A stretch of 64,000 bases of DNA. Source: Sulfurovum sp. XGS-02 (GTDB lineage: Bacteria > Campylobacterota > Campylobacteria > Campylobacterales > Sulfurovaceae). The position numbers and the translations under genes are program-made. Below the pieces are notes generated by a model. It was not told where the DNA came from. It made no database searches and was given only the letters and a program-made list of their open reading frames with translations. Shown piece by piece: positions 9,881 to 26,764 of this stretch. The stretch covers positions 2,108,001 through 2,172,000 of the forward strand of contig NZ_CP093312.1 in assembly GCF_023213175.1 (NCBI RefSeq), written 5' to 3'. Position 1 is the stretch's first letter; each line of letters opens with the position of its first letter.

Positions 9881-9954
9881 TTCTGGAAAAATCAAGTGTT
9901 TCATACTGCTTTGAATGTACTTGCAAACGATTAAAAATGACGAAAAAGATTAAT

Positions 9955-10424: not shown

Positions 10425-10730
10425 TATAACCCAATATCCTAATATTAAAAATTTTAAGTAAAGAATGTAGGCATTATCATACCTTTGTCAACTTTAACAA
10501 AATACTAAAAGCCCATGAGTGGAACTATAGATTAGTGCAAATGAAAAAGTGAATAAAAGCCATATAAATAACATTTCCTATAAAAAATACTAAAATTCAA
10601 CAAAGTATGCTATAAGTTTTGGGAAAGAGGATATGATTGAGTCGATAAAAGTTTTGGAATATCAGTGTGAGCGTCTACACATTGGCTCTATATTACCATC
10701 TATCTTTTCAAAAATATCATCATGTATTTT

Positions 10731-10797
10731 TGGTATAAGTAATATAATACCAAAAAGTATTATTTTGTATAAGATTCATTATGATACCATCTGGTAT
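10731..10797. promoter_or_regulatory. Two TGGTAT/ATACCA palindromes before the ATPase gene
   Basis: TGGTAT (10731-10736) pairs with ATACCA (10747-10752) across 10 bases. ATACCA-TC-TGGTAT (10784-10797) is a second site built from the same half-sites. Their position directly before the ATPase gene suggests an operator for a dimeric repressor that has not been identified. Confidence 0.55.
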
Positions 10798-10825
10798 TAT
10801 TAATATGATACTAAACGGAACTGCC

Positions 10826-11971
10826 ATGAGTATTCAACAAATCACAAATCCTTTTCTTTTTGACAAAGAGGTTTCCGGTACACATTTTTGTGGCCGCAGC
10901 AATGATATAAATCAACTACTAAATCATATCCGAAACAGTGTAGATGTCATTATGTTTGCCAAAAAAAGATTGGGGAAATCTTCATTGATCAAAGAGATAT
11001 TCGAAAACCATCTTGATGACGATATACTTCGTGCTCATATAGATATTTATCCTGTCTCAAGTACAAAAGAGCTGTATGAAAAACTCAAGTATGGCATTGC
11101 AGAAAGCCTAAAAGGAAAAGAAAGCAGTCTTGACAAACTTCAGCATAAAGCATCAGATCTCCAAAAATATTTTGCAAGAGCAAAAATATCCCTACAGCTA
11201 ACGCCTATGCCCGTATTTGAAATAGAACCAACATCAAGTCTATATCATGAAGCCATAATGGATATTCTTACTGGGTACTTTGATTACCTTGAGGATAACA
11301 AACTGTTTTCCATTATTGCTATTGATGAATTTCAGAAAATCGCTTCATTGAGTGAGAACGCAAAGATCGAAGAGGTATTAAGGACGGCAATAAGCAAAAG
11401 AAAGAACTGTTCTTTTATCTTTATTGGATCCGAGCGAAATAAACTCCTCTCAATGTTCAATTCTCCTAATAGACCTTTTTATAAACTAGGGATAGAACAT
11501 TCCCTGGGGCCCATAGAACAGGAAGTATTCTATAAATGGATTCTGAAGAACTTCAAAAAGGAAAATATCATTTTAGAGGAAGATGCTTTTAACTATCTCT
11601 ATAGTGAATCTTATGGAGAAACACGTTTTATACAGTGGATATCATACAAAATGTTCGAGCTAGAGAATGGGATGACGATCATAGATAAAGTAAAAATGAG
11701 AAAATATATTGATGAGACAATACTGAACGATACAGGCACAGCAATGTACTACAATACCTTTCCTATTGTCCAGCAAAACATACTGAAGATAATAGCCAAA
11801 GAAGACGGTAGTGATCTATATAGCAAATATGTGCTTGACAAGTATGATATCAAAAAAGGTTCTTTGCAAAGTGGTATTGAAAGGCTGGTTAATGCAGGGG
11901 AGATTTTTAAATCAGGAGATAAATACATTTTTGAGAATATTGAACTTGGAATGTGGTTAAAACTCGTATAG
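10826..11971 (+). CDS. P-loop ATPase, archaeal-type ATPase family
   Basis: 381 residues from MSIQQITNPFLF. The N-terminus has the family's NPF...GR opening (HFCGRSNDI). The Walker A is unusual: AKKRLGKSS, with Ala in place of the first Gly. Walker B is IIAIDEFQ near residue 165. The last 70 residues look like a winged helix (LYSKYVLDKYDIKKGSLQSGIERL). The frame is open to an ATG at 10781, but that codon lies inside a palindrome and the extension is unlike the family. Such ATPases often occur on islands, some in defence; the role here is unknown. Confidence 0.8.
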   Translation: MSIQQITNPFLFDKEVSGTHFCGRSNDINQLLNHIRNSVDVIMFAKKRLGKSSLIKEIFENHLDDDILRAHIDIYPVSSTKELYEKLKYGIAESLKGKESSLDKLQHKASDLQKYFARAKISLQLTPMPVFEIEPTSSLYHEAIMDILTGYFDYLEDNKLFSIIAIDEFQKIASLSENAKIEEVLRTAISKRKNCSFIFIGSERNKLLSMFNSPNRPFYKLGIEHSLGPIEQEVFYKWILKNFKKENIILEEDAFNYLYSESYGETRFIQWISYKMFELENGMTIIDKVKMRKYIDETILNDTGTAMYYNTFPIVQQNILKIIAKEDGSDLYSKYVLDKYDIKKGSLQSGIERLVNAGEIFKSGDKYIFENIELGMWLKLV

Positions 11972-12118
11972 TAGTATATACAATCGAAGGAAATTGTAGA
12001 TTGGTTGTGGTTTTAAATAGTATTTTTTATTGTAGCTTAGTGGGACTTTTTGGATGACGGGATGAATAAATTTGTTCAGCAGGATAAGGTTTAGGATGAG
12101 AGTTTCTTTATTGAAATA

Positions 12119-12190
12119 AAAACCTTAGAATCTAACATAGAAAATGACAGACGAGAAATCCTTATAAAGTTATATATTTTATAAGGTTTT
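12119..12190. repeat. CCTTATAA hairpin repeat, copy 3, composite
   Basis: AACCTTAGAATCTAACATA (from 12121) resembles the left half of the long copies at 20158 and 52215. TCCTTATAAAGTTATATATTTTATAAGG (12159-12186) is the hairpin itself. The copy lies between the ATPase gene and the remnant at 12242. Confidence 0.7.
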
Positions 12191-12241
12191 AGAATTATAG
12201 ATAAAATTATAATACGATACATCTTTAATCATTGCAAAAAG

Positions 12242-12404
12242 TTGATCATCCCATCATTGACACTGTTTATTGCATTACCGTTACTGTTAAAAAAGGGAAT
12301 GGACCAGTATGAGTATATCGATCATACTAACCGTGATTGCATACTATCTGATATTTCTGATGCTTCAGAAAATCGGGATAAAAACTCTGATCATGGTTTT
12401 TTAA
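12242..12404 (+). pseudogene. Remnant of a membrane protein C-terminus, frameshifted
   Basis: One frame encodes LIIPSLTLFIALPLLLKKGM. A second frame, from an ATG at 12309, continues with MSISIILTVIAYYLIFLMLQ and stops at 12404. Joined by a frameshift near 12300 they make two membrane segments, as at the end of a permease. The reading is tentative, since a hydrophobic stretch can arise by chance in AT-rich DNA. It overlaps the end of the convergent efflux gene. Confidence 0.4.
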
Positions 12405-13326
12405 TTTCCACGGAAATGTGCACCAGTTCTTTGTGAATAGAAAGCTCTTTTTTAATATCGTCTATCTCAATATTATCATTTGAATTTAGTGTTAATATAC
12501 AGCCGAATTTCCCTTTTCCTACTCGCCAAACATGCAAATCCTCGATGAGAATATTTTGTTGTAAAGCGTTGATCACTTCTATTACTTCTTCTACAATCGG
12601 TGCATCCATTTCTGCATCTAGAAGAATCTTTCCCGACTGCTTTATCAGGCTGACAGCCCAGACGAACACCAGAACAGAACCGACAATCCCCATCATCGGG
12701 TCAAGCCAGGAGAAGCCATAGATCATCCCTCCTGTAAGTGCAATGATCGCCAAAACAGATGTAAGGGCATCGGCCAGTACATGCAGATATGCTGCCTTTA
12801 GATTCATATCATGGTGATGATGCCCGTGTTCATGAGTATGGTGATGATCGTGGCCATGATTGTGATGATGATCGTCTTTAAGTAGCCATGCACAGATAAG
12901 ATTAACGATAAGTCCTACGATGGCAATTGTAATGGCCTCTTTATAGGCTATGCTTACTGGATTGAAAATCCTTTCAACCGAGTGAAATACCATAAAAAAT
13001 GCAACGACTAAAAGCAGAATCGCACTGGTATATCCACCTAGAACCTCCATCTTATAGGTTCCGAAATTAAATCTGAAATCATTGGCATATTTGCTTGCCA
13101 TTACATAAGCCATGTACGCCATTCCAAGAGCAAGGACATGTGAACTCATATGCCAGCCATCGGCAAGCAGTGCCATGGAGTTATAGTAATATCCACCGAA
13201 TATTTCAACAATCATCGTCACAAAAGTCAGAAGTGTCGCATAAAGCGTATTCTTTTTTGCAATAGGGTTGGATGTGTCAAAATGGTGCGAGTGTGAAATT
13301 TCCTTTAATGATTCAATGGTATTCAT
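12391..13326 (-). CDS. dmeF: Cation diffusion facilitator, DmeF-like Co/Ni efflux
   Basis: 311 residues with about six membrane segments of the CDF family. The zinc/cobalt/nickel-type site DGWHMSSHV near residue 55 and HVLADALTS near 180 mark the two halves of the transport site. Between them lies a very histidine-rich cytoplasmic loop (about 150-172), typical of DmeF. A CsoR/RcnR-type regulator is divergent 70 bases away, as in dmeRF operons. It exports divalent metal across the inner membrane against protons; cobalt and nickel are inferred from the pairing. Confidence 0.88.
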   Translation of the reverse strand: MNTIESLKEISHSHHFDTSNPIAKKNTLYATLLTFVTMIVEIFGGYYYNSMALLADGWHMSSHVLALGMAYMAYVMASKYANDFRFNFGTYKMEVLGGYTSAILLLVVAFFMVFHSVERIFNPVSIAYKEAITIAIVGLIVNLICAWLLKDDHHHNHGHDHHHTHEHGHHHHDMNLKAAYLHVLADALTSVLAIIALTGGMIYGFSWLDPMMGIVGSVLVFVWAVSLIKQSGKILLDAEMDAPIVEEVIEVINALQQNILIEDLHVWRVGKGKFGCILTLNSNDNIEIDDIKKELSIHKELVHISVEIKKP

Positions 13327-13353
13327 TTAAATCCTCTTTAAAATATTTTTTGA

Positions 13354-13368
13354 TACTATACCCCAGTA
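13354..13368. promoter_or_regulatory. RcnR/DmeR-type operator
   Basis: The reverse strand reads TACT-GGGGTAT-AGTA: inverted TACT/AGTA arms around a G-tract. RcnR of E. coli recognises TACT-G6-N-AGTA, with the same seven-base centre. It lies between dmeF and dmeR, placed to control both divergent genes. Confidence 0.75.
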
Positions 13369-13396
13369 TACCTTATCAAATCATAAAGGCAATAAG

Positions 13397-13669
13397 ATGG
13401 CACATTTGATCGCAAACAAAGAGAAATTGATCTTAAGGATAAAAAAGATCAAAGGGCAATTAAACAGTATAGAAAAAGCTTTGGAAGCAGAAAATGACTG
13501 CTTTAAAGTGTTGCAGCAAATTAGTGCAAGTAGAGGTGCTATACAATCACTAATGAGTGAAGTTTTAGATGGTCACATCAAAGAGCATTTAGGTAGTCAT
13601 GTAAGCGATGAACAAAGAGAACAAGAAATTGAAAATCTGACAACACTACTCAAAACATATTTAAAGTAA
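13397..13669 (+). CDS. dmeR: Metal-sensing repressor of the CsoR/RcnR family
   Basis: A 90-residue all-helical repressor. MAHLIANKEKLILRIKKIKGQ is the family start, with His3 at the N-terminus. Other likely ligands are Cys36 in NDCFKVLQQ, His60 in DGHIKEHL and His64; this H-C-H-H set is that of RcnR/DmeR (Ni/Co) rather than copper-type CsoR. It is divergent from dmeF with a matching operator between them. It should release DNA when metal binds. dmeR and rcnR are both fitting names. Confidence 0.88.
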   Translation: MAHLIANKEKLILRIKKIKGQLNSIEKALEAENDCFKVLQQISASRGAIQSLMSEVLDGHIKEHLGSHVSDEQREQEIENLTTLLKTYLK

Positions 13670-13696
13670 TTTGTATAAAAAAAATAAGGATTATAC

Positions 13697-14068
13697 TTGA
13701 TTGAAAAACTGAAAAAATGGGCAAGCTATCTGAAACATTACCTGTATGCCCTATATTTGGCATATCATCACAAAGATGTTCCAATAGTTGCTAAAATAAT
13801 AGCGGTAATAGTGGTTTCATATGCCCTAAGCCCAATAGATTTGATTCCTGATTTTATCCCTATCATTGGATATTTGGACGATTTTATTTTATTGCCACTT
13901 GGAATAGTATTAGCCATAAAACTGATACCAGAGGAGATTTGGAGTGATTGTAAAAATGAAGCCCATCAATCAACTCTAAAATCTCTACCTCATTCTAAAA
14001 CAGCTGCCTTTGTTGTAATCATTATATGGATCATAATGGCAACTTTACTTTTTCGGTTGTTCTCCTAA
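13697..14068 (+). CDS. YkvA-like DUF1232 membrane protein
   Basis: 123 residues starting at TTG, with AAGGA six bases before it. The segment SYALSPIDLIPDFIPIIGYLDD (about 41-62) is the DUF1232/YkvA signature. A second hydrophobic helix lies at the C-terminus. The function of the family is unknown. It starts 27 bases after dmeR and may be co-transcribed, a frequent neighbourhood in metal islands. Confidence 0.85.
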   Translation: MIEKLKKWASYLKHYLYALYLAYHHKDVPIVAKIIAVIVVSYALSPIDLIPDFIPIIGYLDDFILLPLGIVLAIKLIPEEIWSDCKNEAHQSTLKSLPHSKTAAFVVIIIWIIMATLLFRLFS

Positions 14069-14284
14069 ACTTATAAATTTAATGATTTATCGTTTACGAA
14101 ACAAGAACCAAATAGCTGTATTCAGTATAATATTTATAAAAAATACTCAAATAATATCAGAGATCACAACTAAATTAAAGCTAATATCACACCAGCTATG
14201 AAGTTGGTTTTATCTATAAGGCCAAAGTCTCTGGACAGGTTAAATATTTTAAGCTAAACTACTTCAAATAAAAAGGCAAAAGCA

Positions 14285-14590
14285 GTGAAAAAGAAAATAG
14301 TACAGTTTTTATTGTTATTATCACTCTTCTTTGGCATTGCCCATGCTTCTGTCATAGCAATAGAAGATGAATGTCATCATGAAACTGCACATGAATATGT
14401 ACTAGAACAGTCTCAATCCACTGAATGCGGTGATTTGTGCGATATGCACCATTTCTTCCATGTTATAGCTATTCTCGATATGCAAAGTACTATATGGAAT
14501 ACAGACTATGTCCAAGAAGGCTTAATACATAAAAACAACCGTTACACTCCCCCAGTTCAAGAAACAATTATTAAACCCCCTATAGCATAA
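14285..14590 (+). CDS. Small secreted His/Cys protein before the efflux operon
   Basis: 101 residues from a GTG start, MKKKIVQFLLLLSLFFGIAHA, a signal peptide cleaved near residue 21. The short mature part has clustered possible metal ligands: ECHHETAHE, ECGDLCDMHHFFH. It lies 66 bases before the outer-membrane efflux gene. A periplasmic metal-binding or sensing role is inferred from composition and position. No named family is recognised. Confidence 0.72.
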   Translation: MKKKIVQFLLLLSLFFGIAHASVIAIEDECHHETAHEYVLEQSQSTECGDLCDMHHFFHVIAILDMQSTIWNTDYVQEGLIHKNNRYTPPVQETIIKPPIA

Positions 14591-14656
14591 TCTTATCTAC
14601 CACACCCTAGTTCTCTTTTGAACACACAATTTAAACATACCATTACAGGAATACCT

Positions 14657-15832
14657 ATGAAAAAAATCATAACGATTTTTTTGAGCTTATCTCTTGGTCT
14701 ATTTGCCATGAGTTACGAACAGTTCAAAAAATATATAGAGAAAAATGCAAAAGCATTACAAAGTCAAGCACTTTCACTACAAACAACACAAGAAGAAAAT
14801 AAAATTCTCTTGCGAACACAGAATCCTACACTCGAAATCGAAGCTTCTAGATTTAATCCTAATAGTATTGAGTCCCGTTTTGGATACTCTGTCATCGCTT
14901 CACAAACGGTACGTACAGGTAACTACTATGGAGGCTTGGAAGATCAAGCAACTGCCTCTACTTTGTTGCAACAAGCTTACGTTCATGATGGCAAAGCAGG
15001 TTATTTTAGAACACTAGAGAATTTGTATACAGAGTATGTCTACCAGAGTAAACTCTTAGCACTACTACAAGAGGAGTACACACTTTCAAATAAAATGACT
15101 GACATGGTGCATGAACGATATAAAAGTGGCTCTGAAAACAAAGTTGCCTATTTGCAAGCCAAGACAGACACTATGATGCTTAAAACGCAAATGTACACCA
15201 CTAAACAAGAGATGCATAAACTCTATTATCAACTCTTAGCTATTGCAGGACTTAGCATGAAAGTTTCTTTAGAAAAGCACTTTATCTATTCTGTATCCAC
15301 ACAAACAAGTTCTGTAGCTAAAACCAACCCAAAAGAACAGATACTTGAAGCAAAAAAGAAACTACTTGAAAGCAAAATTCGCATAAATGAAAGTAGTATC
15401 AATAGTTATAAAGTGTATGGCGGTATAGAAGATGAACCAGAACAATCTATCTTAAGAATAGGTGTTTCTATACCTTTACCAATCTGGAATGAAAAAAGTG
15501 AAGAAAAAGCCCTTGCAAAACTACAGATGCAACAACTTAGTTTGGATAAAGAGCAATTAAACATTGATCTGATCTCTCAAAAAGAGATGATTAAAGCTTC
15601 TATCAGAGAATTATCAGAGCAATACCGTTCACTCAAAAACCTTAAAAAAGAGCAGCAAATACTCAATGACATACTTCAAGAAGGATATAAAATCGCACAA
15701 GGATCTATTTTTGAGATGATGAGTGCAAAAAATAAACTCATACAAACACAAAAATCACTTTTGCAAACACACAAAACGATTAACAATCAAAAAATAGAAT
15801 TACGTTTCATACAAGGACAATACAATGACTAA
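14657..15832 (+). CDS. Outer-membrane efflux protein, TolC family (CzcC-like)
   Basis: 391 residues from the ATG at 14657, which has AGGA before it and a signal peptide (MKKIITIFLSLSLGLFAMS). A start 13 codons upstream would bury the signal. The helical repeats with long coiled segments (about 150-200, 310-380) and SIPLPIWNEKSEEKALAKL are typical of TolC-type channels. It overlaps the adaptor gene by 8 bases. It forms the outer-membrane duct of the tripartite metal pump below. Confidence 0.88.
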   Translation: MKKIITIFLSLSLGLFAMSYEQFKKYIEKNAKALQSQALSLQTTQEENKILLRTQNPTLEIEASRFNPNSIESRFGYSVIASQTVRTGNYYGGLEDQATASTLLQQAYVHDGKAGYFRTLENLYTEYVYQSKLLALLQEEYTLSNKMTDMVHERYKSGSENKVAYLQAKTDTMMLKTQMYTTKQEMHKLYYQLLAIAGLSMKVSLEKHFIYSVSTQTSSVAKTNPKEQILEAKKKLLESKIRINESSINSYKVYGGIEDEPEQSILRIGVSIPLPIWNEKSEEKALAKLQMQQLSLDKEQLNIDLISQKEMIKASIRELSEQYRSLKNLKKEQQILNDILQEGYKIAQGSIFEMMSAKNKLIQTQKSLLQTHKTINNQKIELRFIQGQYND

Positions 15833-16970
15833 ATATTTACTTTTACTTTTGCCACTTTTAAGTTTTGCCTCTGCTATTAAAGTAGAGCATGCACAGCTCA
15901 AGCCATTGGGGAAAATGATACAAACCAATGCGCAGATCACCCAACTCTCAGACCAAAAACAAGAGATAGTTTCACGTCTCTCTGGACACCTGGAAAGATA
16001 CTATGTCCAAGCAGGACAGCACGTTAAGAATGGAGAAAAAGTAGCACTCATAGAATCTATAGAACTCTCTAAAATGTCAGCAGCCTACTTGGCACTTATT
16101 CAGCAAAGCAAAGCTGCAGAGATACAAAAAAATGCAACGATGAAGCTGCATCAAAAAGGCTTAAGTTCACAAAATGACTTGAGCAATGCTATTATCTCTC
16201 TAGAAGAGATACGTTCAAAGAAAAATGCTTTGGCTTCACAGCTCAAATCTTTAGGTATTAACCCTACCACACTCAAAGAAGCAACTGATAAACTTACTAT
16301 CTATGCGCATGCTGATGGTGTAGTGGGTCAAATTACCGCACCACTTCACTCAAATGTAGATGCACAAACCCTACTCATGACACTGGTTAATCAAAGTGGC
16401 TACTACGCAGTAGCCTATCTTGGTGTCAATGACGCAATGAAAATCACAAAAGAGACCAAAGGATGGATAAATGTTGCAGAGAAACAATACCCTTCTACTT
16501 TTGTACAGCTACTGCCAAATATTGATCCTGAAACACAACGTGCCAAAGTGCTGTTCAGTATCGATCAAAGCCCATCTAATTTACTTTTAGGTGCTTTTAA
16601 TGAGATGGACATTGCACTGGCACCGTATACAAATACTGTGATGGTGAAAAAATCTGCTTTGAGTCTTTTTAAAGGTGAATGGGTTGTATTTGTAGAAAAA
16701 GAACATGAAGAAGCGGAACATCATGATGAAAAACCTGACCACGATCATGACAAAGAAGACAAAGAGCATGAAGAACATGAAGATAGCGATGACGAAGAGG
16801 GAGAAGAGCATGAAGAAGCACCCTATGAAGCAAAAGTCGTTGAGATTGTTGCGTATGCAGGAGATGATGTAGCCGTTAAAGGCCTCAAAGCAGATGAAGA
16901 GTATGTGAGTGAAGGTGTTTATTTTGTAAAATCAATGATACTCAAGTCTTCTCTTGGCGATGGCGATTAG
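15825..16970 (+). CDS. RND efflux periplasmic adaptor (CzcB-like)
   Basis: 381 residues with an N-terminal signal peptide (MTKYLLLLLPLLSFASA). A barrel-sandwich segment (GHLERYYVQAGQHVKNGEKV, about 48-67) and a coiled hairpin with LHQKGLSSQNDL are membrane-fusion-protein features. Near residues 288-330 is an extremely His/Asp/Glu-rich loop, likely to collect divalent metal in the periplasm. It links the CzcA-like pump to the TolC-like channel, and the three genes form one operon. Confidence 0.9.
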   Translation: MTKYLLLLLPLLSFASAIKVEHAQLKPLGKMIQTNAQITQLSDQKQEIVSRLSGHLERYYVQAGQHVKNGEKVALIESIELSKMSAAYLALIQQSKAAEIQKNATMKLHQKGLSSQNDLSNAIISLEEIRSKKNALASQLKSLGINPTTLKEATDKLTIYAHADGVVGQITAPLHSNVDAQTLLMTLVNQSGYYAVAYLGVNDAMKITKETKGWINVAEKQYPSTFVQLLPNIDPETQRAKVLFSIDQSPSNLLLGAFNEMDIALAPYTNTVMVKKSALSLFKGEWVVFVEKEHEEAEHHDEKPDHDHDKEDKEHEEHEDSDDEEGEEHEEAPYEAKVVEIVAYAGDDVAVKGLKADEEYVSEGVYFVKSMILKSSLGDGD

Positions 16971-16979
16971 GAGCATAAA

Positions 16980-19900
16980 ATGAAACGATTTTTTGAACTA
17001 CTTATACAGTATAAATTTCTCATGCTCGCACTTTTCATAGCCATCTCCGGATTTGGCTATAAAGCGTACCAAAATATACCCGTAGATGCCTTTCCGGACA
17101 TCACACCCAAACAAGTGGTCATCTATACCGAGAGTGCGGGTAACTCTGCTGAAGATATAGAAAAGCTCATTACTTACCCTATAGAAGCGGCTATGTCAGG
17201 ACTTCCTGGTGTGAAGATGATACTTTCCAACTCCATTTTTGGACTTTCCTATGTTTCTATTTTTTTTGAAGATGAGTATGATACTTACCTCTTGCGTCAA
17301 CTCGTCACTGAAAGACTCAACACAGTAGACATCCCAAAAGGCTGGGGAACGCCTGTGATGGGTCCAAATACCACTGGCCTTGGACAAGTACTCTGGTATG
17401 CACTCAAAGATGAGTCTAAAACATTTACACCAAGCCAACTTAGGCAAATGCATGAATATACGGTTACCCCACTACTTAAATCAGTAGATGGTGTAGAAGA
17501 AGTCATCTCGTGGGGTGGCTATGAAAAACAATATGAAGTACTCATAGACCCTAAACGCTTACAGAGTGTAGATGTCACCTATAATGAAGTTATAGAAGCC
17601 CTTGAAAAATCAAACCAATCTGTAGGAGGACAATACCTCGAATTTAACCGTGAACAGTACCTTATACGTGCTGCAGGTCTTTATAACACTCTTGATGACA
17701 TCAGAAATACTGTCATTCGTACCAAAGATGCTAAAACAGTCACCGTTCAAGATGTTGCCACCATCCAAGAAGGCAAAGCACCACGTTTTGGTGCTGTATC
17801 AGTAGATGGCAAAGAGAGAGTCTTTGGTATGGTACTGCAACGTTCAGGTACCAATGCAGCTAAAGTTGTTGAACTCATTAAAACAAAAATGCCATTGGTC
17901 AATGCTGCACTTCCCAAAGGTGTCACTCTGGATGTCATTTATGACAGAACAGAGATCACGCATAAAGCAGTAAGTACTATGAACTCTGCTCTCCTTACCG
18001 GGTCGATCTTGGTTGCTATAACACTCTTTCTATTTTTGTTTGAGTTGCGTTCTGCGTTTATTGTGATTGTCTCCTTACCTATCTCTTTGCTTATCGCATT
18101 TTTGATGATGCAGGAGTATGGTATCTCTGCAAATCTCATGTCTCTCTCGGGCCTTGCCATCGCCATAGGGATGATAGTCGATGGTACCATCGTTGTGGTG
18201 GAGAACTCCTTTAGGCTGCTTCACGACAACCCCAAGGCATCCAGAGCTGAAGTCATCGCAGAAGCTACTGCCGAAGTGGCAAAACCTGTGCTTTTTGCCC
18301 TGCTTATTATCGCTACTGTATTTATACCACTACTTAGCCTTGATGGTCTTGCAGGTAAACTCTATACACCTATGGCTCTAGACATTGTCTTTGTGATGCT
18401 TGGTTCACTCGCAGTTGCACTTCTGCTTGTGCCTGTACTTTCATTCATGATGCTCAAACAAGGAAAACATGCCAACAGTCCACTAATGCATGCTATTAAG
18501 TCATTTTATACCCCTATGTTAATCTTTTCACTCAAACATGCTAAAAAGTTAGTTACTGTAACCTTTTTCATCTTTATTGTTCTGGCAGGACTTTTGAGCC
18601 AGCAAGGTCGTGAGTTTATGCCTGAACTTAATGAAGAGACCATCATGTACAGAGTCATCGCCATCCCTGGAACAGCACTCACTCAAAGTGTAGAAAATGC
18701 GCAAGCCATTGAAAATTTCATACTTGAGACGTACCCTAAAGAAGTGCTATCGGTGCTTTCCATGATAGGGCGTAGTGAAAAAGGTGAGACTGCACAAGCC
18801 AACTACATGGAAGTACTGCTCACACTCAATCCAGAGTTCACAGAGATACCAAAGCTCGATAAAGAGATGACAAAAAAACTAAAAGAAAAGTTTAACTTCT
18901 TACAATTCATTTCTACGCAGCCTATCGCTATGCGTATCGAAGAGTTACTTGAAGGTGTAAGTGCAGAACTTGCTGTTAAAATCTACGGGGAAGACCAAAA
19001 AATCATGTCGCAAATAGCTGGTGAAATTTCTGGCATTCTTAGAGGCATAGAAGGGCTTGATCATGCTGAAGTAGAAACACAATTGGGACAGGCGCAAATC
19101 AACATCAAACCAAACTACTTAGCTCTTTCACGTTATGGGTTGAGTATAGAAGATGTGATGCAAGTGATTCGTTATGGTATCGGTGAAGAAGCTGTGACAC
19201 AAAAAATAGAAGGCGTAAAACGTTTTGGTATCGTAGCTAAACTCAAAGATGCAAAACAAGATATCAACACACTGAAATCACTTGTTTTACGTTCAGACTC
19301 CGGAAAAGTTGTGACACTTGAAGAAGTATGCGACATAACTGTTATACAGGGTCCTGCTTTCATTAAAAGAGAAGACTTGAGCCGTTATATGGTACTTTCA
19401 CTCGAAGTAGAAGATCGTGACATTGCTACTTTCGTAGAAGAAGCAGATGCCAAGATAAAAGCCAATGTAAATATACCAGACGGCTACTACATCAAATGGG
19501 TGGGTGACTTTAAAAATATGCAAGAAGCCACAGCAACCTTGGCGATGATTATTCCTATTACTTTACTGCTCATTATGCTTTTGCTCTACACCGCATTTAA
19601 CTCGTTTAAAAAAGCTTTTCTAATCTTGCTTGGTGTGCCTCTAGGTCTCATGGGTGGGATAGTCGGACTTTTACTCTCTGGTGAGTATCTTTCGGTCTCT
19701 GCTATTGTTGGATTCATTGCTATTTTTGCCATCGCTATACTCAACGGCATTGTTCTTGTATCTTTTATAGATGAGTTGCGCAAAAAATTCCCCACAGTCA
19801 AAACCATAGACTTGGTAAAAGATGCCACGCTCTTACGGCTCAGACCTGTACTTATGACAGCCTTTACCACACTCTTTGGGATATTACCTCTACTTTATGC

Positions 19901-20030
19901 TACAGGTGTAGGCTCAGAGATACAGTATCCACTTTCTGTAGCTGTAACAGGAGGGATTATCTCTTCTACGATACTCACTCTTTTAGTTTTACCGGGCTTG
20001 TATGTGTTGTTCTTTAAAAAAGAGGAATAA
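16980..20030 (+). CDS. Heavy-metal RND transporter (CzcA/CusA family)
   Basis: 1016 residues, normal for heavy-metal RND pumps, with 12 predicted membrane segments and two large periplasmic loops. IPVDAFPDITPKQV near residue 33 is the family's opening motif. The fourth membrane segment has AIGMIVDGTIVVVEN near 394-410, with the proton-relay Asp. The metal cannot be fixed with confidence; the Asp-Gly pair resembles the Zn/Co/Cd group more than the Cu/Ag group. It uses the proton gradient to send metal out through the CzcBC-like partners. Confidence 0.92.
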   Translation: MKRFFELLIQYKFLMLALFIAISGFGYKAYQNIPVDAFPDITPKQVVIYTESAGNSAEDIEKLITYPIEAAMSGLPGVKMILSNSIFGLSYVSIFFEDEYDTYLLRQLVTERLNTVDIPKGWGTPVMGPNTTGLGQVLWYALKDESKTFTPSQLRQMHEYTVTPLLKSVDGVEEVISWGGYEKQYEVLIDPKRLQSVDVTYNEVIEALEKSNQSVGGQYLEFNREQYLIRAAGLYNTLDDIRNTVIRTKDAKTVTVQDVATIQEGKAPRFGAVSVDGKERVFGMVLQRSGTNAAKVVELIKTKMPLVNAALPKGVTLDVIYDRTEITHKAVSTMNSALLTGSILVAITLFLFLFELRSAFIVIVSLPISLLIAFLMMQEYGISANLMSLSGLAIAIGMIVDGTIVVVENSFRLLHDNPKASRAEVIAEATAEVAKPVLFALLIIATVFIPLLSLDGLAGKLYTPMALDIVFVMLGSLAVALLLVPVLSFMMLKQGKHANSPLMHAIKSFYTPMLIFSLKHAKKLVTVTFFIFIVLAGLLSQQGREFMPELNEETIMYRVIAIPGTALTQSVENAQAIENFILETYPKEVLSVLSMIGRSEKGETAQANYMEVLLTLNPEFTEIPKLDKEMTKKLKEKFNFLQFISTQPIAMRIEELLEGVSAELAVKIYGEDQKIMSQIAGEISGILRGIEGLDHAEVETQLGQAQINIKPNYLALSRYGLSIEDVMQVIRYGIGEEAVTQKIEGVKRFGIVAKLKDAKQDINTLKSLVLRSDSGKVVTLEEVCDITVIQGPAFIKREDLSRYMVLSLEVEDRDIATFVEEADAKIKANVNIPDGYYIKWVGDFKNMQEATATLAMIIPITLLLIMLLLYTAFNSFKKAFLILLGVPLGLMGGIVGLLLSGEYLSVSAIVGFIAIFAIAILNGIVLVSFIDELRKKFPTVKTIDLVKDATLLRLRPVLMTAFTTLFGILPLLYATGVGSEIQYPLSVAVTGGIISSTILTLLVLPGLYVLFFKKEE

Positions 20031-20039
20031 TTAATCATT

Positions 20040-20075
20040 ATCATGGGAGAATCCCATGGTATACTATTTTTTATT
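20040..20075 (+). terminator. Terminator of the metal-efflux operon
   Basis: CATGGGA-GAA-TCCCATG (20042-20058) is a perfect hairpin, followed by a T-rich tail (ATTTTTTATT), 10 bases after the stop codon of the RND gene. Confidence 0.75.
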
Positions 20076-20157
20076 CCCTTTTATATAGATTTATTAGAAT
20101 ATACTTGTGTCTTATTCTTATCCATCTTCTTTGATGTAGATTTTATGCTTATTTCAG

Positions 20158-20283
20158 AAACCTTATAATCTAACATATTTTATAACGTTTCCCGCTATAG
20201 CGTTGTTTGCGAGCCATAAAATCTACCCCTTCAATAGAAAACCTTATAAAATGTTCCATATTGGAATGTTTTATAAGGAAAAC
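20158..20283. repeat. CCTTATAA repeat, long composite copy 4
   Basis: About 126 bases with the same plan as the copy at 52215. A left part holds AACCTTATAATCTAACATAT, a linker ends in CAATAGAAAA, and a right hairpin (20242-20278) pairs CCTTATAAAA with TTTTATAAGG around a variable centre. It lies between the czcA terminator and the first attC-like site. Confidence 0.8.
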
Positions 20284-20398
20284 TATCAAAAGAAGTGTGA
20301 TCTAAAAAAGTATAAAAACAGATGTTTCAATTACATGAAATCGTTCGAGTATAGACAATTAATTGTGCTATAATTTTTATCTATCGGTGACACAAAAT

Positions 20399-20459
20399 TC
20401 TGAACGGTCTCAAAAGCCACCTGCGGGTTTTTGATTGGTCTCCTTTGATTTGTTATGTG
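20399..20459 (-). repeat. attC-like site A, after the abiV cassette
   Basis: Read on the minus strand it begins CACATAACAAATCAAAGGAG, shares AATCAAAAACC with site C, and ends near ACCGTTCAG. A weak internal hairpin pairs CAAAA with TTTTG. Its right boundary lacks the GTTAT seen in site C, as expected for the last site of an array or a decayed one. Confidence 0.7.
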
Positions 20460-21034
20460 TTTTTAATTTGTTCGAACAGGGCATCGGTTATGTCGTCCAT
20501 TTCATATGTGTGATTGGTGACTCCAACTAGCGCATCATCAAATGCTTCAATTGCAAATAAGACTAAAGACCTCGCAAGCTTCTTGTCTACTTTCTCAGCT
20601 GGTATAGTTAAGCTACCGTTTTCTCTTTGGAAATACAGTGCACTTTCTCTAGTTTGGACAAAACCTGAATTGTGTGCCAGATTCATTATGCGCTGAAGCT
20701 CTGGACTTCCAAGAGCTTCGTTTAAACGTTGCGCCACTGTAACAGTCGGCAATGCAGCCATTTGATGCTTTGTTCTATGATCTCGGAATATATTACGCCC
20801 ATTTTTTTCTGGATGTTTTCCATCAGTAAAGGAACCAATGTGTGCCTTTGCAATTTCTTCACATGCACTTATACTCAAAAATGCAGAAGTTGGATAGCTA
20901 CCATTCATGTATAAAGTACATGCATCTTGAATAAGCTGAACTATATGGTCAACTGCTTTGTTAAAATCATCAACACTTTGAATAAGATTTTCATCCGTTC
21001 TTACCATGCTGCTGATAAGTTCAAATACTTCCAT
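20453..21034 (-). CDS. abiV: AbiV family abortive-infection protein
   Basis: 193 helical residues. SAFLSISACEEIAKAHIGSF near residue 50 and the following FRDHRTKHQ match the HEPN_AbiV family. The lactococcal member stops phage growth by blocking translation after infection. The stop codon lies within attC-like site A, as in a typical integron cassette, and site B lies just upstream. No promoter was found between them, so it probably depends on read-through along the array. The family is clear; activity in this host is inferred. Confidence 0.85.
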   Translation of the reverse strand: MEVFELISSMVRTDENLIQSVDDFNKAVDHIVQLIQDACTLYMNGSYPTSAFLSISACEEIAKAHIGSFTDGKHPEKNGRNIFRDHRTKHQMAALPTVTVAQRLNEALGSPELQRIMNLAHNSGFVQTRESALYFQRENGSLTIPAEKVDKKLARSLVLFAIEAFDDALVGVTNHTYEMDDITDALFEQIKNT

Positions 21035-21051
21035 AGTAGGTTCTCGCTTTA

Positions 21052-21119
21052 CACATAATGTTTAAAATAAGAAATAAATTAGCCGCAGGATAATTTATTT
21101 CTCTCCAATGATTTGTTAT
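21052..21119 (-). repeat. attC-like site B
   Basis: On the minus strand: TATAACAAATC at one side, CATTATGTG at the other, and between them a perfect 11-base stem GAAATAAATTA / TAATTTATTTC with a 9-base loop (21071-21101). Single-stranded folding of this kind, with little primary sequence shared in the stem, is the hallmark of attC. Confidence 0.8.
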
Positions 21120-21789
21120 ATTTTTCCCTAATATTTACAATGATAGGAGTAACTAATTTTGTTATATATTCTCTATCTTGATCACTCCCACTAAATCCAT
21201 ATGACATAGCTATTGTAATTATTTTAGCTTGTTCAATTAATGGGGCAATCGTATAAACATAATTTTCAATTTCTTGTTCACTCCACAAATCCCCCTCTAA
21301 GTAATAGCTTGATTTATTAAATATATCTAAGTCTAAGTCTAATATAATTTTTTTATTGCCTATAGAGTGTATTAAGTCTTCAATTTTATCATGGATGTTT
21401 TGTTTGGCACCATAATTAATCAATAAGCTTTCATCTAATCCAATTTCTGTATCTGTTTGAAAACAGTGAAAATCCACTCTATTTACATAACCTCTAATTA
21501 TTGATGGAGCAATGAAAGAATCCTTTCTAATATAGTTTTCTTCAATAAGTACATCCTTCATCGTTTCTAGATTCATATCTTTGATTATAGACTCATCTTC
21601 TTGATAGTCATTTATCGCATCCCAATGATAATCTAGATGAACTAAAGTAGAAGGAATATCGTTTTCTTCTCTATATAGTTCCCAGCAATACAATGACCAT
21701 TTGTGATTATCCATAATCCATATATTTGGGTATATTTCCTCAAAATATTCTTCATTATTTGAAAAAATTATTTTATTGATATAATCCAT
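21079..21789 (-). CDS. UPF0489 family protein
   Basis: 236 residues from MDYINKIIF; AAGGAAG precedes this ATG, while the upstream extension runs into attC-like site C and is not used. IWIMDNHKWSLYCWEL near residue 22 and LVHLDYHWDA near 48 are the UPF0489 signature, and KKIILDLDLDIFN near 140 adds an Asp-rich motif. This resembles metal-dependent arginase-like folds, but the biochemical role is unknown. The gene ends inside attC-like site B, so it is the second cassette of the array. Confidence 0.85.
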   Translation of the reverse strand: MDYINKIIFSNNEEYFEEIYPNIWIMDNHKWSLYCWELYREENDIPSTLVHLDYHWDAINDYQEDESIIKDMNLETMKDVLIEENYIRKDSFIAPSIIRGYVNRVDFHCFQTDTEIGLDESLLINYGAKQNIHDKIEDLIHSIGNKKIILDLDLDIFNKSSYYLEGDLWSEQEIENYVYTIAPLIEQAKIITIAMSYGFSGSDQDREYITKLVTPIIVNIREKYNKSLERNKLSCG

Positions 21790-21800
21790 CAACTTCCTTA

Positions 21801-21872
21801 GTATAACGTTTAAAATGACCAATCAAAAAGCCGCTTGCAGGTTTTTGATTGATCTCCTCTGATTTATTATGC
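21801..21872 (-). repeat. attC-like site C
   Basis: The minus strand starts GCATAATAAATCAGAGGAG and ends AAACGTTATAC. Between them is a perfect 10-base stem CAATCAAAAA / TTTTTGATTG (21820-21829 with 21842-21851). The outer ATAAT/GTTAT pairing and the total of about 70 bases fit integron attC sites. Confidence 0.8.
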
Positions 21873-22328
21873 CGCGATACTCCGTTTTTGCGGAAGCAAG
21901 AAGGCTCCGAATAGCATCCCAAGCACTAAGCCAACAATGATTGCCGGAAGGCCAATAGCAATATACCATCCTATACCCAATACAATATAGGCACTCAATA
22001 GACCAGAGAGCACAGCTCCCACGATTGCAACGCCTAGGTCAGGCATCTTGAATCTCTCTAGCAGGCGGACTAACCCAAATAATACGAGTGCGATGATGAT
22101 TGCATAGATAGAGAGAAGCAGTGCCCATCCCAGTATGTATACTGTATTGCTTAAGAATTCTTCCCAGGAGAGCGAGAACGGTTCAGCATACCATCCGGGG
22201 CCAGGTCTGTCACTATAAGCGAGATAACCTGCCACTGGCGAGAGAATTAGGAAGAGAGTGGTTCCCCCAACGACCACGCCCAAGTACATTGCTACTGTCT
22301 TCAGCAAATCAAGTGATATCCGCTTCAT
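21867..22328 (-). CDS. Four-helix membrane protein in an integron-like cassette
   Basis: 153 residues with about four hydrophobic helices (near 12-32, 63-88, 97-120, 122-145) and little else. The ATG has GGAGAG before it and the stop codon is in attC-like site C, so this is the first cassette of the array as transcribed. No family is recognised. The GC-richer sequence differs from the AT-rich neighbouring cassette, which suggests a different donor. Confidence 0.75.
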   Translation of the reverse strand: MKRISLDLLKTVAMYLGVVVGGTTLFLILSPVAGYLAYSDRPGPGWYAEPFSLSWEEFLSNTVYILGWALLLSIYAIIIALVLFGLVRLLERFKMPDLGVAIVGAVLSGLLSAYIVLGIGWYIAIGLPAIIVGLVLGMLFGAFLLPQKRSIAA

Positions 22329-22490
22329 TGAGTCTCTCTCCGCATAATTATTTATTCAACAAACACTTTATACAAAACATTCGGAAATCCCTATGATAAC
22401 CAACAGAAAAAATGTGTGTTTATTGGATAAAACTTCCTCTTTTTAACTATTTTATACCAAAAATGATAAAAATTCCTAAAATACATCAAA

Positions 22491-22658
22491 ATGCAATGTG
22501 CCATTTGCCCAGAAATTGGCGATATTTGTACAAAGTGTGGTTTATCGGGAAAATATCGGGATAAAACCACAAAGTGTGTGTTTATTGGAACTGACACTTA
22601 TGATTTTTGCTCGCCTTGTTTTTTAAATACCATAGCGCCCTATGGAGACCCGCAATAA
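22491..22658 (+). CDS. Possible small cysteine-rich protein
   Basis: A 55-codon frame with three CxxC pairs (CAIC, CTKC, CSPC), as in a zinc ribbon. No ribosome site is seen, and it overlaps on the other strand a small membrane-peptide gene that has one. The coding of KCVFIG is repeated just upstream at 22410-22427 in another open stretch that ends at once, which hints at a partial duplication. Treat it as a candidate only. Confidence 0.3.
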   Translation: MQCAICPEIGDICTKCGLSGKYRDKTTKCVFIGTDTYDFCSPCFLNTIAPYGDPQ

Positions 22659-22695
22659 CGCTGCCTAAAATCACAACTACTGCTAATGTGCTCAC
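22582..22695 (-). CDS. Small single-helix membrane protein
   Basis: 37 residues from a GTG start with AAGGA six bases before it. MSTLAVVVILGSVIAG forms one membrane helix, followed by the aromatic and basic tail LHRALWYLKNKASK. It resembles the 33-residue protein at 23775 at several positions (MST, VILG/IVLG, R-A, YL-K). Short hydrophobic peptides with basic tails occur among type I toxins and small regulatory membrane proteins; which applies is unknown. Confidence 0.55.
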   Translation of the reverse strand: MSTLAVVVILGSVIAGLHRALWYLKNKASKNHKCQFQ

Positions 22696-22729
22696 GATGT
22701 TCCTTGTGGAGAATTAATAAAATTTTCTA

Positions 22730-23314
22730 TTAAAATCTCCATATATTTTTAAGAATTTGAGAATTGATTTCTTCTTGTTTTTCTCTAATAGAAGTTAGTT
22801 GTCTTTTTTTAACCTTCATTAGTTGCTCGGCTTGTCGAATTTCAGACCGCAAGGTTTGATTTAGTATGTCAACTTTTTCTTCATTTGAATTAAACATTTT
22901 TTGCAAAAAGTTTCTATCTTTTAAATATTTTAGATTCAATTTTATTTTGGAATTACATTCCGAAATATCCCATTCTAATGAATTAATTTCTATATCTAAT
23001 TCATATTCCTCTTTATCCAAAGGCTGTCTTTTGCTTATTAGGGCCTTGCGCTCATTTATTTCATCTAATATCTCTTGCAAGTCTCGTTGATATTTATCTG
23101 GATTACTTAATGCCTTCTGAAGTATTTTTAAGCCATCTCTTTGTCTCTTGAAGTATGCTTTTTCTTCTAGTGATTCTTCATAGTCATTGTCTTCTTTCCA
23201 CATCTCGTAATGTGCGTCAGTCGTACTCATTATATGAAATGCTAATTGTTCACATTTGTGATTTAAGAAATCAATATTGTCTTTGCTAATCATTATTTTT
23301 AAACTCTCGGTCAT
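22730..23314 (-). CDS. Coiled-coil protein, unrecognised
   Basis: 194 residues, highly charged, with long heptad-rich helices (about 70-185) and no membrane segment. The start is uncertain: ATG codons at 23314 and 23293 both lack a good ribosome site. It overlaps the truncated EcoRI-type methylase fragment upstream, so it may have come with that fragment. No family is recognised. A DNA-modification-linked or structural role is guesswork. Confidence 0.6.
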   Translation of the reverse strand: MTESLKIMISKDNIDFLNHKCEQLAFHIMSTTDAHYEMWKEDNDYEESLEEKAYFKRQRDGLKILQKALSNPDKYQRDLQEILDEINERKALISKRQPLDKEEYELDIEINSLEWDISECNSKIKLNLKYLKDRNFLQKMFNSNEEKVDILNQTLRSEIRQAEQLMKVKKRQLTSIREKQEEINSQILKNIWRF

Positions 23315-23459
23315 TACAATTACAATAAACTACTTTATCTTTGAAGTGTTTTTTGTAGTGTTTCAATTCCCTTTCAATACCGGGAAACTGGGTATAAAAC
23401 TCATCTTCTTTGGAGTCTATTGCTCTATGGAGATTCGAATTTAGTACTTTTTCTGCCAT
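23286..23459 (-). pseudogene. Truncated EcoRI-type adenine DNA methylase, N-terminal 57 codons
   Basis: The frame from 23459 reads NSNLHRAIDSKEDEFYTQFP, then ELKHYKKHFKDKVVYCNCND, which is the N-terminal block of the EcoRI methylase family (these proteins normally run ...VVYCNCDDP...SNF and on to about 300 residues). Here it leaves the family after CNCND and stops seven codons later. The catalytic Asn-Pro-Pro-Phe region is absent, so no activity is expected. It is a relic of a restriction-modification system. Confidence 0.75.
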
Positions 23460-23774
23460 TTCACAATAAACTTTTATGCTAAGTCGTGGTTATCTTAACA
23501 TTAAGGCACTTAATCTATATGTAGATTATCAATCTTCCATACGAGACTCAACTGCAACAGAGACAGACTCATCATTTCCAAATAGTTTTTTGATCATTCC
23601 AAACATAATCTGTATCCCATAATTAGTTATCATTTAGTATATACTATCACATATTATGACATATTCTAGCCATACCATATTGCTTTGCAGACCCTATCTA
23701 GAACAAAACAATAAAATGTGTGGCTAAGCTTCGACTTTAGATATACTTTTATATCCCTACAAAGAAGGATCAAC
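23460..23774. other. Spacer with one tiny reading frame
   Basis: The only coding candidate is a 25-codon minus-strand frame at 23529-23606, MFGMIKKLFGNDESV, with a weak GGGA upstream; it is not supported enough to call. Otherwise the DNA is AT-rich with no recognised signal. Confidence 0.4.
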
Positions 23775-23876
23775 ATGAGCACAACAGCAACATTGATAGT
23801 TTTAGGTGGCATATTGGCGATACCATACAGAGCACCATGCTACCTTGAGAAAAGAAATGCAAAATCGGACAATTAA
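23775..23876 (+). CDS. Small single-helix membrane protein at the right end
   Basis: 33 residues, MSTTATLIVLGGILAIPYRA followed by a charged tail, with AAGGA six bases before the ATG. One short membrane helix is predicted. It is similar in start and layout to the minus-strand peptide at 22582. It is the last gene before the element's right end, about 60 bases away. Its function is unknown. Confidence 0.5.
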   Translation: MSTTATLIVLGGILAIPYRAPCYLEKRNAKSDN

Positions 23877-23924
23877 TATTACACTTTCTGTAATTGGATA
23901 CCCTATACGCCTATATATCGCATG

Positions 23925-23953
23925 GTATTACACTTTAATACTAGATAAAGAAT
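23925..23953 (-). repeat. Right end of the mobile element
   Basis: ATACTAGATAA (23938-23948) is the inverted match of the left-end TTATCTAGTAT. Inward lies the palindrome GTATTA-CACTT-TAATAC (23925-23941). Outward come AGAAT and then GGTACTTTTTTTGAAG, where MutS7 coding resumes. Confidence 0.75.
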
Positions 23954-23992
23954 GGTACTTTTTTTGAAGTCTATGAGGTCAATAACGATGAG

Positions 23993-26764
23993 ATGAAAGT
24001 AGGTAAGGCCAAAGAGATAGCCGAACTGCTCAACATACAACTCACTCGAAAAAGCAAAGCCGTACTCGAAAACTCGGTTTCCAATCCTCTTCTTGCAGGT
24101 GTCCCGGCCGTCTCACTGGACCGTTACCTCTCCCGTCTCATTGCTACCAAAAAATATACCATCATCGTGGTCAAACAAAAAGGAGAGATGCCGAACATCA
24201 AACGCTATGTCTCCAACATCATCTCTCCGGGTACAAACTTTGAATACCTGAGTGAACCCTCTGAGAATAACATCGTCTCTCTGCTCATCGATGAGAATGC
24301 CGGCATCTTCTCCGTAGGGTATGCGGCGATAGATGTGAGTACAGGTAAAACCATCTGTAACGAGATACACTCCACCCGCGATGACAAAACCTATGCCCTG
24401 GATGAAGCGTTCAACCTTCTGCAAACCTATACGACTTCAGAGGTCATCATCACGCTTGATAGTAAAGAGATTGACAAAGAGTGGATTATTCACTATTTGG
24501 AACTTGAGTCTCTGCACTACTCTCTCAATACAAAACGGTTTAAAATACAATTTCAAAATGAGCTCTTCACCCGGGTCTTCAACATCAACTCTTTTCTCTC
24601 CAGTATAGAGTTTCTTGACCTTGAGAGACATCCTTATACCACAGAGTCTCTGGCTGTACTGATCGACTTTATCATCGAACATGATGAGAGTATCATAGAG
24701 AAGATGAACAAGCCGCAGTTCTTGGGGAATAATCGTTATATGTACATCGGCAACAATGCCATGGAACAGCTTTCAGTGATTTCCCGCGATCCTTCCGACA
24801 TCACACTGCTTGACCTGATAGACAAAACATCGACTGCTTTTGGCAAACGTCTTCTCAAGGAGCGCTTGCTCAACCCTATCTGTGATAAAGCACTGCTTGA
24901 AGCACGGTATAACCTCACAGAACTGTTACTGCCGAGCATCAACCGTTTTGAGACACATCTGAAACAGATCTATGACCTTGAGCGTATCACGCGGCGTATC
25001 AAACTGCGTAAACTGCATCCTGTAGAATTGACATACATTGCGATGTCCCTGGATGCCATTTTGAAACTGCTTGACGATGCCCAAAGTAATGGCCTTGAGA
25101 TAGAGGGGAACCTCTATGATGAAACTCAGGAGATGCTGAAAGTGTTACATGACACGTTTGAACTGGATATCTGTGCACGCTTCCGTATAGAACAGATCAA
25201 TGACAACCTCTTTAAAGACGGGGTCTATCCTGCTATTGACACTATTGTCAAGAGTCAGCAAAAAGAGGTCAACAAAATGGAAGATGTAGCCGCCCATGTT
25301 GAATCCCTTTTTGACCAAGACAAACTGTTCTCCGGCACTGCTAAATATACAACGGTCAATTACCTTGAAAGCGAAGGGTATTTTCTCAACCTTACAAAAA
25401 ACCGTTTTACCCTCATAGAGAAGTCCCTTAAGGACTCTTTCGTGACCATTGACAACCAACATCACTTCTTTAAAGACTTTCACTATAAATACTTAAAAAA
25501 TGCCGTCAAGGTACAGGCACCTCTTTTTGAAGAGATCACGAGAAACTACGAAGCCTCTCAGGTCAAACTCGTTTCCCTTGTCAAACAACGCTATATAGAG
25601 AGTCTTGATCTACTTGAAAACAGGTTCTCTTTACTGCTTGACAAACTGATAGTCTTCATCGCCGACATCGATGTGGCGATCTCCAATGCAAAATGCAGCA
25701 AAACGATGAACCTCTCCCGTCCTATCATAGAAGAGGGTAACTTTTATGAGGCGATAGCCTTGCGACATCCTATTATAGAGTCCAATGACGAAAGAGGTAT
25801 TTATGTGCCTAATGATGTTTTTTTAGGAGAGAACAATGGGACAACACACAACCATATTACCCTCAATGCCAGTGACGGTGAAGATGTTCTAGGTACGCTT
25901 TTGTACGGTATCAACTCTTCAGGGAAGTCCTCATTGATGAAAAGTATAGGGATCTCAGTGGTCCTGGCACAAGCCGGTTTTTTTGTCCCTGCGGTGGAAC
26001 TTCGTTTCGGGCTCTATGAGAAACTCTTTACACGGATCGTTTCACAAGACAATCTTTACAAAGGGTTGTCAACCTTTGCTGTGGAGATGATGGAGCTCAA
26101 AAACATCTTCAACCGTGCAAATGCGCGCTCTTTGGTCCTAGGTGATGAGATAAGCCAAGGGACGGAAACAGAATCTGCCCTTGCCATCGTTTCAAGTGCT
26201 ATACTCAAACTTATCTCTTTGAGATCGACCTTTATCTTCGCAACGCACTTGCATCAGCTGGGAAGCATCCCTCAGCTGCAAAGTATGAAACAGCTTATCT
26301 TCCTGCATCTGGGGATCAAGTATGATGAAAGTAATGATACCCTCATCTATAACCGTGTACTGCAGTTAGGCATGGGAGACAGCCTTTACGGACTGGAGTT
26401 TGCCAAATCACTCCATATGGACAGTGAATTTCTCAATATGGCACAGACTATTCGGGAGAATCTGAACAATAGCGGAAGCGACATCAAAAAGCTACGCAGA
26501 CAAAAGAGCAGTAAATACAATAAAGATCTCTATCTCAGTAAGTGTGCCCTATGTGAAGAGAGTGTAGAGGATGTTCATCATATCGCTGAACAGAAGCATG
26601 CAAATCAGGAAGGGCAGATAGAGCACTTCCATAAAAACCATAAATACAACCTCATCCCTCTATGTAAAAATCATCATAATCTGGTGCATGAAGGAAAAAT
26701 TAATATCTCTGGATTCGTGATGACAAGTGAAGGGTTAAAATTGCATTATGAGATCAAGAGCTAA
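23993..26764 (+). CDS. MutS7-type mismatch-repair homologue with HNH domain, 5' end lost
   Basis: 923 residues from the first in-frame ATG. Just upstream, codons 23954-23992 encode [13 protein letters not shown], including the Phe-x-Glu mismatch-reading motif, but a TAG at 23942 and the lack of a start codon leave them untranslated. The rest of domain I ([14 protein letters not shown]), the lever and clamp helices, a Walker A (INSSGKSS near 645) and a Walker B (LVLGDEIS near 715) follow. The C-terminus (about 849-905) is an HNH nuclease with CALC, DVHH and LCKNHH. MutS plus HNH defines MutS7, known from Campylobacterota, giant viruses and octocoral mitochondria. As it stands, mismatch recognition should be lost. 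Confidence 0.9.

Follow-up and report, generated by a model that had tools for sequence, protein, structure and literature searches.

An AbiV-family gene in a decayed integron cassette array carried on a tyrosine-recombinase island of Sulfurovum sp. XGS-02

The closest characterised relative of the gene analysed here is AbiV of Lactococcus lactis. According to the accessible portion of a review (PMC3231927), the lactococcal protein is homodimeric and binds SaV, a phage protein; it appears to shut down late phage genes through inhibition of translation, and its gene was silent until the promoter region had been rearranged. In the accessible part of an analysis of the HEPN superfamily (PMC3710099), AbiV is listed as a family in which the canonical Rx4-6H motif is not conserved and an alternative conserved His is found instead. 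Anti-phage genes in integron cassettes were published in 2025 (Darracq, Kieffer and Getz, as cited in the open portions of PMC12409362 and PMC12444791), and Table 1 of PMC10295459, a paper available in part, gives Sulfurovum sp. NBC37-1 as a strain with clusters of attC sites lacking an integrase (CALINs). GInts, finally, are described in the accessible sections of PMC5385486 and PMC10214605 as carrying at one end a ginABCD operon of three tyrosine recombinases and a small protein; further features named there are a GinC without catalytic residues, imperfect direct repeats (10-17 nt) on either side and an AT-rich 3′ end.

Here, we analysed a window (the whole 64-kb stretch of DNA under study) in which an AbiV-family gene lies in a small array of cassettes. 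The locus resembles the anti-phage integron cassettes of 2025, going by what the citing papers give of them, in that a small defence-type gene comes with an attC of its own. It differs from them in that the array lacks an integrase, is small (n = 3), has decayed sites, sits inside another type of island and belongs to the Campylobacterota. With CALINs it shares the presence of at least two attC sites and the absence of an integrase; the difference is that the array is cargo of an island with a trio of recombinases. The reading that we favour, and consider likely, is that an AbiV-family gene moved among the Campylobacterota in the form of an integron gene cassette, ended up in a small array without an integrase (a CALIN) and is today carried, as cargo, by a 23.3-kb island that has three tyrosine recombinases. 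Integron-borne phage defence is already known, and the AbiV cassette adds a member to this known kind in an uncommon arrangement. A search of the open-access literature, which left most subscription papers outside its scope, found no report of AbiV as an integron cassette, and the arrangement of a decayed cassette array carried on an island was not found in print. With it, the recent idea that integrons store phage defence would reach a phylum in which this has received little study.

An AbiV-family gene in a three-cassette array

The open reading frame (ORF) at positions 20453..21034 on the minus strand runs from ATG to TAA and encodes a protein of 193 amino acids. The family model TIGR04498 matched it over the full length with 105.7 bits (cut-off 27), the HEPN_AbiV domain PF18728 with 71.6 bits (cut-off 27.1) and the PADLOC AbiV model with 237.8 bits, and AbiV chains in the PDB were retrieved with E values of 8.6e-46 (9bj5, residues 17-192) and 1.6e-45 (9bj7). 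Judged by its sequence, the product is a full-length AbiV-family protein. Its likeness to AbiV of L. lactis (PF18728/TIGR04498; PDB 9bj5-9bj7) consists of the full-length match together with an EExxK-type motif and an RxHxxKH region seen in the alignment with 9bj5; it differs in that it is a cassette coding sequence (CDS) in the Campylobacterota. The polar residues E59, E60, K63, H86, K89 and Y134 were invariant in 7/7 aligned AbiV proteins, across which EExxK and HxxK are the invariant motifs. We infer that H86 is the alternative His meant for AbiV in the part of PMC3710099 available. The sequence-only reading had ascribed a HEPN_AbiV motif to the protein; the match to the domain holds up, but Rx4-6H, the canonical motif, is the one listed as not conserved for AbiV. 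The protein of the window does have an R-x5-H (RDHRTKH); however, its Arg is not kept in AbiV of two other loci (L133 and L028), and the motif therefore offers no basis for an argument. AlphaFold2, run on AbiV as a single sequence, gave no usable fold (mean pLDDT of only 36.7).

The gene is the last of three co-directional minus-strand ORFs (membrane-type, UPF0489 and AbiV), each with an attC or attC-like site behind it. Cassette 1 (21807..22347, minus strand) starts at an ATTATGC box, and its CDS at 21867-22328 encodes a membrane-type protein with no family match. Cassette 2 (21059..21806, minus strand) contains a CDS at 21079-21789, with an ATG start chosen by us, for a protein of the UPF0489 family (PF12640). 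The proteins of these two cassettes had no match in plasmids. Cassette 3, the AbiV cassette (20412..21058, minus strand), extends from the crossover point of the site that we call attC2 to a break inside the site that we call attC3.

To describe these sites, we built an attC model (R1) from 12 sites, namely attC1 and attC2 of the window and ten from other loci. A search of 58 loci with R1 yielded 78 attC sites, 71 of them distinct, and these 78 made up a second model (R2) that contains no site of the window, although R1, with which its members were collected, included attC1 and attC2. In the search of the 64-kb window, R2 detected attC2 (21053..21121, minus strand) with 74.2 bits (E value of 8.5e-14) and attC1 (21801..21872, minus strand) with 71.7 bits (E value of 3.1e-13). 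The stem of attC2 is intact and its crossover triplet reads ATT, not GTT; in attC1, the R′ box GTTATAC is intact and R″ reads AAT, not AAC. The third site, attC3 (20412..20458, minus strand), is a remnant that consists of R″, L″ and the loop only, having lost L′ and R′, and it reached only 21.0 bits (E value of 0.077). Its R″ box contains the AbiV stop codon. The gene had been placed between two attC-like sites, one of which was said to end it: the upstream sites attC2 and attC1 are real, but the terminal one is a 5′ half-attC. A cassette that ends in a full attC was accordingly dropped, since attC3 lacks L′ and R′ and scores 21.0 bits.

Alternatively, AbiV might be no cassette at all and the sites common terminators or palindromes of the REP type. 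Many unrelated palindromic repeats in the genome speak for this explanation: the left half of the stretch 20158-20411, next to the AbiV cassette, is a dispersed repeat, and 20150-20411 has 15 matches in the genome of the strain, the query itself included. However, the structure-specific scores are strong, and the attC sites covary. Over the 71 distinct sites, 95.6% of the cells were paired and 180 cells were changed on both sides, and the covariation score was 0.395 against 0.090 in shuffles, none of which (0/500) scored as high; the alignment was fitted to the structure under test and leans in its favour, and two other statistics, for pairs and for pair types with changes, were not clearly above shuffles (93/500 and 136/500). 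Moreover, the TAAC and GTTA boxes are conserved in the set, sites of the same kind lie beside integron integrases in relatives, and in another genome such sites also flank AbiV, where the cassette starts at the same crossover base. A total of 123 kb from 7 loci, taken from relatives (mostly at the corresponding chromosomal region) or from the left flank, contained no R2 match at an E value of 0.1 or better. Already disfavoured, the terminator or REP explanation has in our view next to no chance of being right. In an Rfam scan of the window, no attC family was reported, and tRNA alone reached the gathering threshold.

We continue with AbiV as an integron-type cassette. Sites of the same kind also occur on plasmids of 130-160 kb from Arcobacteraceae (Aliarcobacter/Arcobacter; L012, L013 and L014), where the adjoining genes are hypothetical or encode DUF2971, DUF262 and HNH proteins. 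A solo attC of 60.8 bits is found elsewhere in the genome of the strain (G000:C1:687783-687852; L077 1501-1570), with the AAAACCTTATAA repeat family behind it, which is also the family found next to attC3. Dispersed palindromic AAAACCTTATAA...TTATAAGGTTTT repeats lie in the window at 9060-9100, 9850-9890, 12160-12190 and 20158-20290, and also in Sulfurovum mangrovi.

AbiV beside attC sites in other genomes

A second copy of the cassette was found on a 6.8-kb contig (JAUPLZ010000302.1, G348:C339; here L010) of a Campylobacterota metagenome-assembled genome that shares the order of the strain but belongs to a different family. Its AbiV is 93% identical in amino acids to that of the window and has an intact attC on either side (912-979 and 1574-1642); two further attC lie at 5133 and 6006. 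In both loci the cassette starts with TTATGTGTAAAGCGAGAAC directly after the crossover, so the 5′ boundary falls at the same base, and the preceding attC and gene differ; at the 3′ boundary, the attC crossover is present in L010 and broken in the window. The claim of an integron-type cassette is thus borne out by a near-identical AbiV that stands between intact attC sites among other neighbours. Because the threonyl-tRNA synthetases of the two hosts are only 62% identical, compared with 93% for AbiV, the cassette has moved between these lineages, which belong to different families. Between the two copies, dS is 0.197 and dN 0.036 (ratio 0.18; Fisher p of 6e-7 for the rate difference), and hence the protein has been kept. 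The two cassette bodies are almost identical, but the attC sites behind them (20412-20458 in the window, 1574-1642 in L010) diverge beyond their first 13 nt, which looks as though the ORF had stayed and its attC had been swapped. The L010 array as a whole (368-6077) is rich in defence candidates.

AbiV was present in 1/175 genomes of the family, in 3/398 genomes of the order by protein search and in 4/397 genomes of the phylum by TIGR04498; the three draws overlap and together comprise five genomes with AbiV. In three of these five (the genome of the strain, G348 and G340), an attC or a remnant of one lies directly behind the gene. The AbiV of G340 is divergent, being 22% identical to the protein of the window (109.8 bits with TIGR04498, 40.7 bits with the PADLOC model), and precedes an attC (54.6 bits) and, after that, other likely cassettes. 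Since this divergent AbiV is also a cassette, and since an attC stands beside AbiV in 3/5 genomes, the family probably entered cassettes more than once. No credible attC adjoined AbiV in the other two genomes, G227 and G310. Beside the G227 gene lies a large helicase-type ORF, which we take to resemble a type I restriction subunit. A specific and experimentally tractable family can thus be named as cassette cargo in three genomes.

AbiV was also found in 99 plasmid records, 93 of them from Enterococcus and all below 60% identity, and no attC lay behind the gene in two plasmid neighbourhoods of approximately 3.5 kb each. A search of viral contigs gave 15 pattern matches to AbiV, none of which was a relative; no AbiV was found in 50,697 phage records, and no AbiV cassette in E. 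coli genomes.

Decay of the flanking sites

Three observations bear on whether the AbiV cassette can still move. First, the genome of the strain (one contig, 2.19 Mb, 99.8% complete) contains no integron integrase, the best match to TIGR02249 reaching 60.8 bits against a cut-off of 265. The array is a CALIN, with two attC sites (attC1 and attC2) and no integron integrase in the genome. Second, the crossover triplet of attC2 is mutated; its G is kept in 67/71 distinct attC sites and absent in 4/71. Third, attC3 is truncated. It is identical at 44/46 nt to an attC of the Arcobacter/Aliarcobacter plasmid L012, after which the sequence changes bluntly to non-attC, and the first bases past the break match S. 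mangrovi at 27/30, where no attC adjoins. The stretch beyond the break (20158..20411, no strand assigned) is common to S. mangrovi NZ_CP087125.1, which lacks AbiV there, with 85.9% identity. With only the 5′ half of the 3′ attC left, the AbiV unit of the window is a former or degenerate cassette. Given the lack of an integrase in the genome, the mutated triplet of attC2 and the truncated terminal attC, the cassette is probably unable to excise by itself today. Still, attC2 may keep some activity, since it deviates from the consensus in a single triplet base and 4/71 relatives also do without that G.

That the cassette is live, with working attC2 and attC3, that an integrase from outside mobilises AbiV and that the array is an active defence store seems to us quite improbable. 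Such a reading could appeal to the wholly intact stem of attC2 (74.2 bits), to the occurrence of integron integrases in 36/175 and of attC sites (E value of 1e-6 or better) in 77/175 genomes of the family, and to the flank beside attC3, which happens to hold CCGTTCAG with a GTT in it. However, attC3 lacks L′ and R′, and this GTT is part of the stretch in common with S. mangrovi, which has no attC next to it there; in addition, the triplet of attC2 reads ATT and the integrase is missing from the strain's own genome. The earlier suggestion of an integron that stores phage defence survives in the sense that a genuine cassette of an abortive-infection family is present, but a live store is not supported, as the integrase is absent, attC2 mutated and attC3 truncated. 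We thus retain the reading of a cassette at rest, which, probably unable to leave alone, would move with the island if at all. The intact cassette in L010 and the broken one in the window form a natural series in which to study how a mobile defence cassette becomes fixed.

A role of the 20158-20411 flank as attI was considered and dropped; the flank is partly repeated sequence and holds a promoter-like stretch that faces the 3′ side of AbiV. This stretch (TGTGCTATAAT, 20358-20378) is kept in S. mangrovi and, by eye, enters AbiV from the 3′ side in antisense.

The island and the presumed role of AbiV

The array had also been supposed to sit on a larger element that can move as a whole, and such an element can be delimited as a 23.3-kb island with recombinases of its own. 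The island occupies positions 619..23948 of the plus strand (23,330 bp), is inserted in a mutS-like gene and ends in perfect 11-bp inverted repeats (619-629 and 23938-23948), for which approximately 0.0002 occurrences are expected by chance in such short windows. The gene (MutS I, III and V domains), located between rpmI and infC, is cut after its LMEI codons and resumes at GTFFE. Comparison with relatives places its cut-off 5′ end at 483..626 and the rest at 23954..26764 (both plus strand), with an annotatable ORF at 23993-26764. In the closest relatives (G137 and G090; L079 and L080), rpmI, the intact mutS-like gene and infC are contiguous. The right end had first been placed at 26.6-27.0 kb beside infC; comparison with the relatives corrected this to 23948. 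If the mutS-like gene is lost or under phase-like control, the mutation rate could be affected. The empty site in relatives and the perfect terminal inverted repeats make the island look mobile. The large recombinase of the island was found in 1/175 family genomes, the strain's own, and had no match in plasmids; consequently, these genomes offered no second copy of the island with which to compare the ends.

At its left end, to the left of the array, the island carries one operon of three tyrosine recombinases and a small protein, all on the plus strand: recombinase A (824..1933, 369 amino acids, 85.2 bits with PF00589), the large recombinase B (1934..4708, 924 amino acids, 36.2 bits), recombinase C (4708..6369, 553 amino acids, 56.2 bits) and a ginD-like protein of 158 amino acids (6359..6835) with a weak helix-turn-helix match below the cut-off. 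The order of the recombinase trio and the small protein at one end, the cargo and the site in a host gene recall GInts, a likeness to the ginABCD operon that is judged by layout and domains alone, without comparison to Gin proteins. Unlike in GInts, recombinase C retains residues of the catalytic type (SGLRATE, HQFRH and, further downstream, a Tyr, all read by eye from the translation), the ends are 11-bp inverted repeats, with the best direct repeat matched by 88/100 shuffles, and the insertion splits the target gene. The 3′ end of the island has a GC content of 0.328 versus 0.402 for the window, a comparison with no homologue as a yardstick. Given the catalytic-type residues of recombinase C and direct repeats that do not rise above chance, a clean GInt label was dropped; the island is GInt-like only and matches part of the definition.

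As for function, the role of AbiV in phage defence is suggested by homology. By analogy with the lactococcal system, the protein of the window would be an effector of abortive infection that responds to a product of some phage; it would bind a phage protein and stop the translation of phage proteins, and few phages would then be produced per infected cell. A promoter scan near the array gave 21 promoter-like sites, compared with 19.7 ± 3.9 in shuffles, which is the level of chance. As no promoter of its own was found, AbiV is expected to be read by transcripts from upstream.

Alternatively, the gene might encode a cassette-borne HEPN-type stress or dormancy factor with no part in phage defence in this host. 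Such a role is proposed, in the accessible part of PMC3710099, for another HEPN family found in integron cassettes (PDB 3jrt), and the same part points out toxin RNases in cassettes. The likeness of the 3jrt family to the locus lies in a HEPN-type protein in an integron cassette, the difference in that AbiV is another HEPN family, listed in that part as lacking a conserved Rx4-6H. A ParE/antitoxin-like pair in front of AbiV in the L010 array points the same way. Nevertheless, we regard a stress or dormancy role as unlikely, because, among characterised families, AbiV itself comes closest, for which the available portion of PMC3231927 describes a phage-triggered block of translation, and because the neighbours include defence candidates. 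Behind AbiV in L010, cassettes between two attC sites match the PADLOC candidates PDC-S56 (813 bits) and PDC-S69 (344 bits) and are followed by a NERD protein. The island itself carries PDC-S39 (DUF7380/DUF4209; 7234..8997, plus strand; 562.1 bits), a candidate defence gene of PADLOC. As a sign of defence, the presence of AbiV and this candidate on one island is suggestive only. We thus retain phage defence as the presumed role of AbiV. A wider generalisation, which we put forward as tentative and possible at most, is that AbiV is a recurrent cassette defence gene of the Campylobacterota, handed over from integrons to islands with a recombinase trio, and that loss of the integrase and decay of attC sites fix such arrays as defence islands.

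PDC-S39 lies directly behind the recombinase operon. Further cargo of the island includes an operon of the OEP/HlyD/RND metal-efflux type at 14618..20030 on the plus strand.
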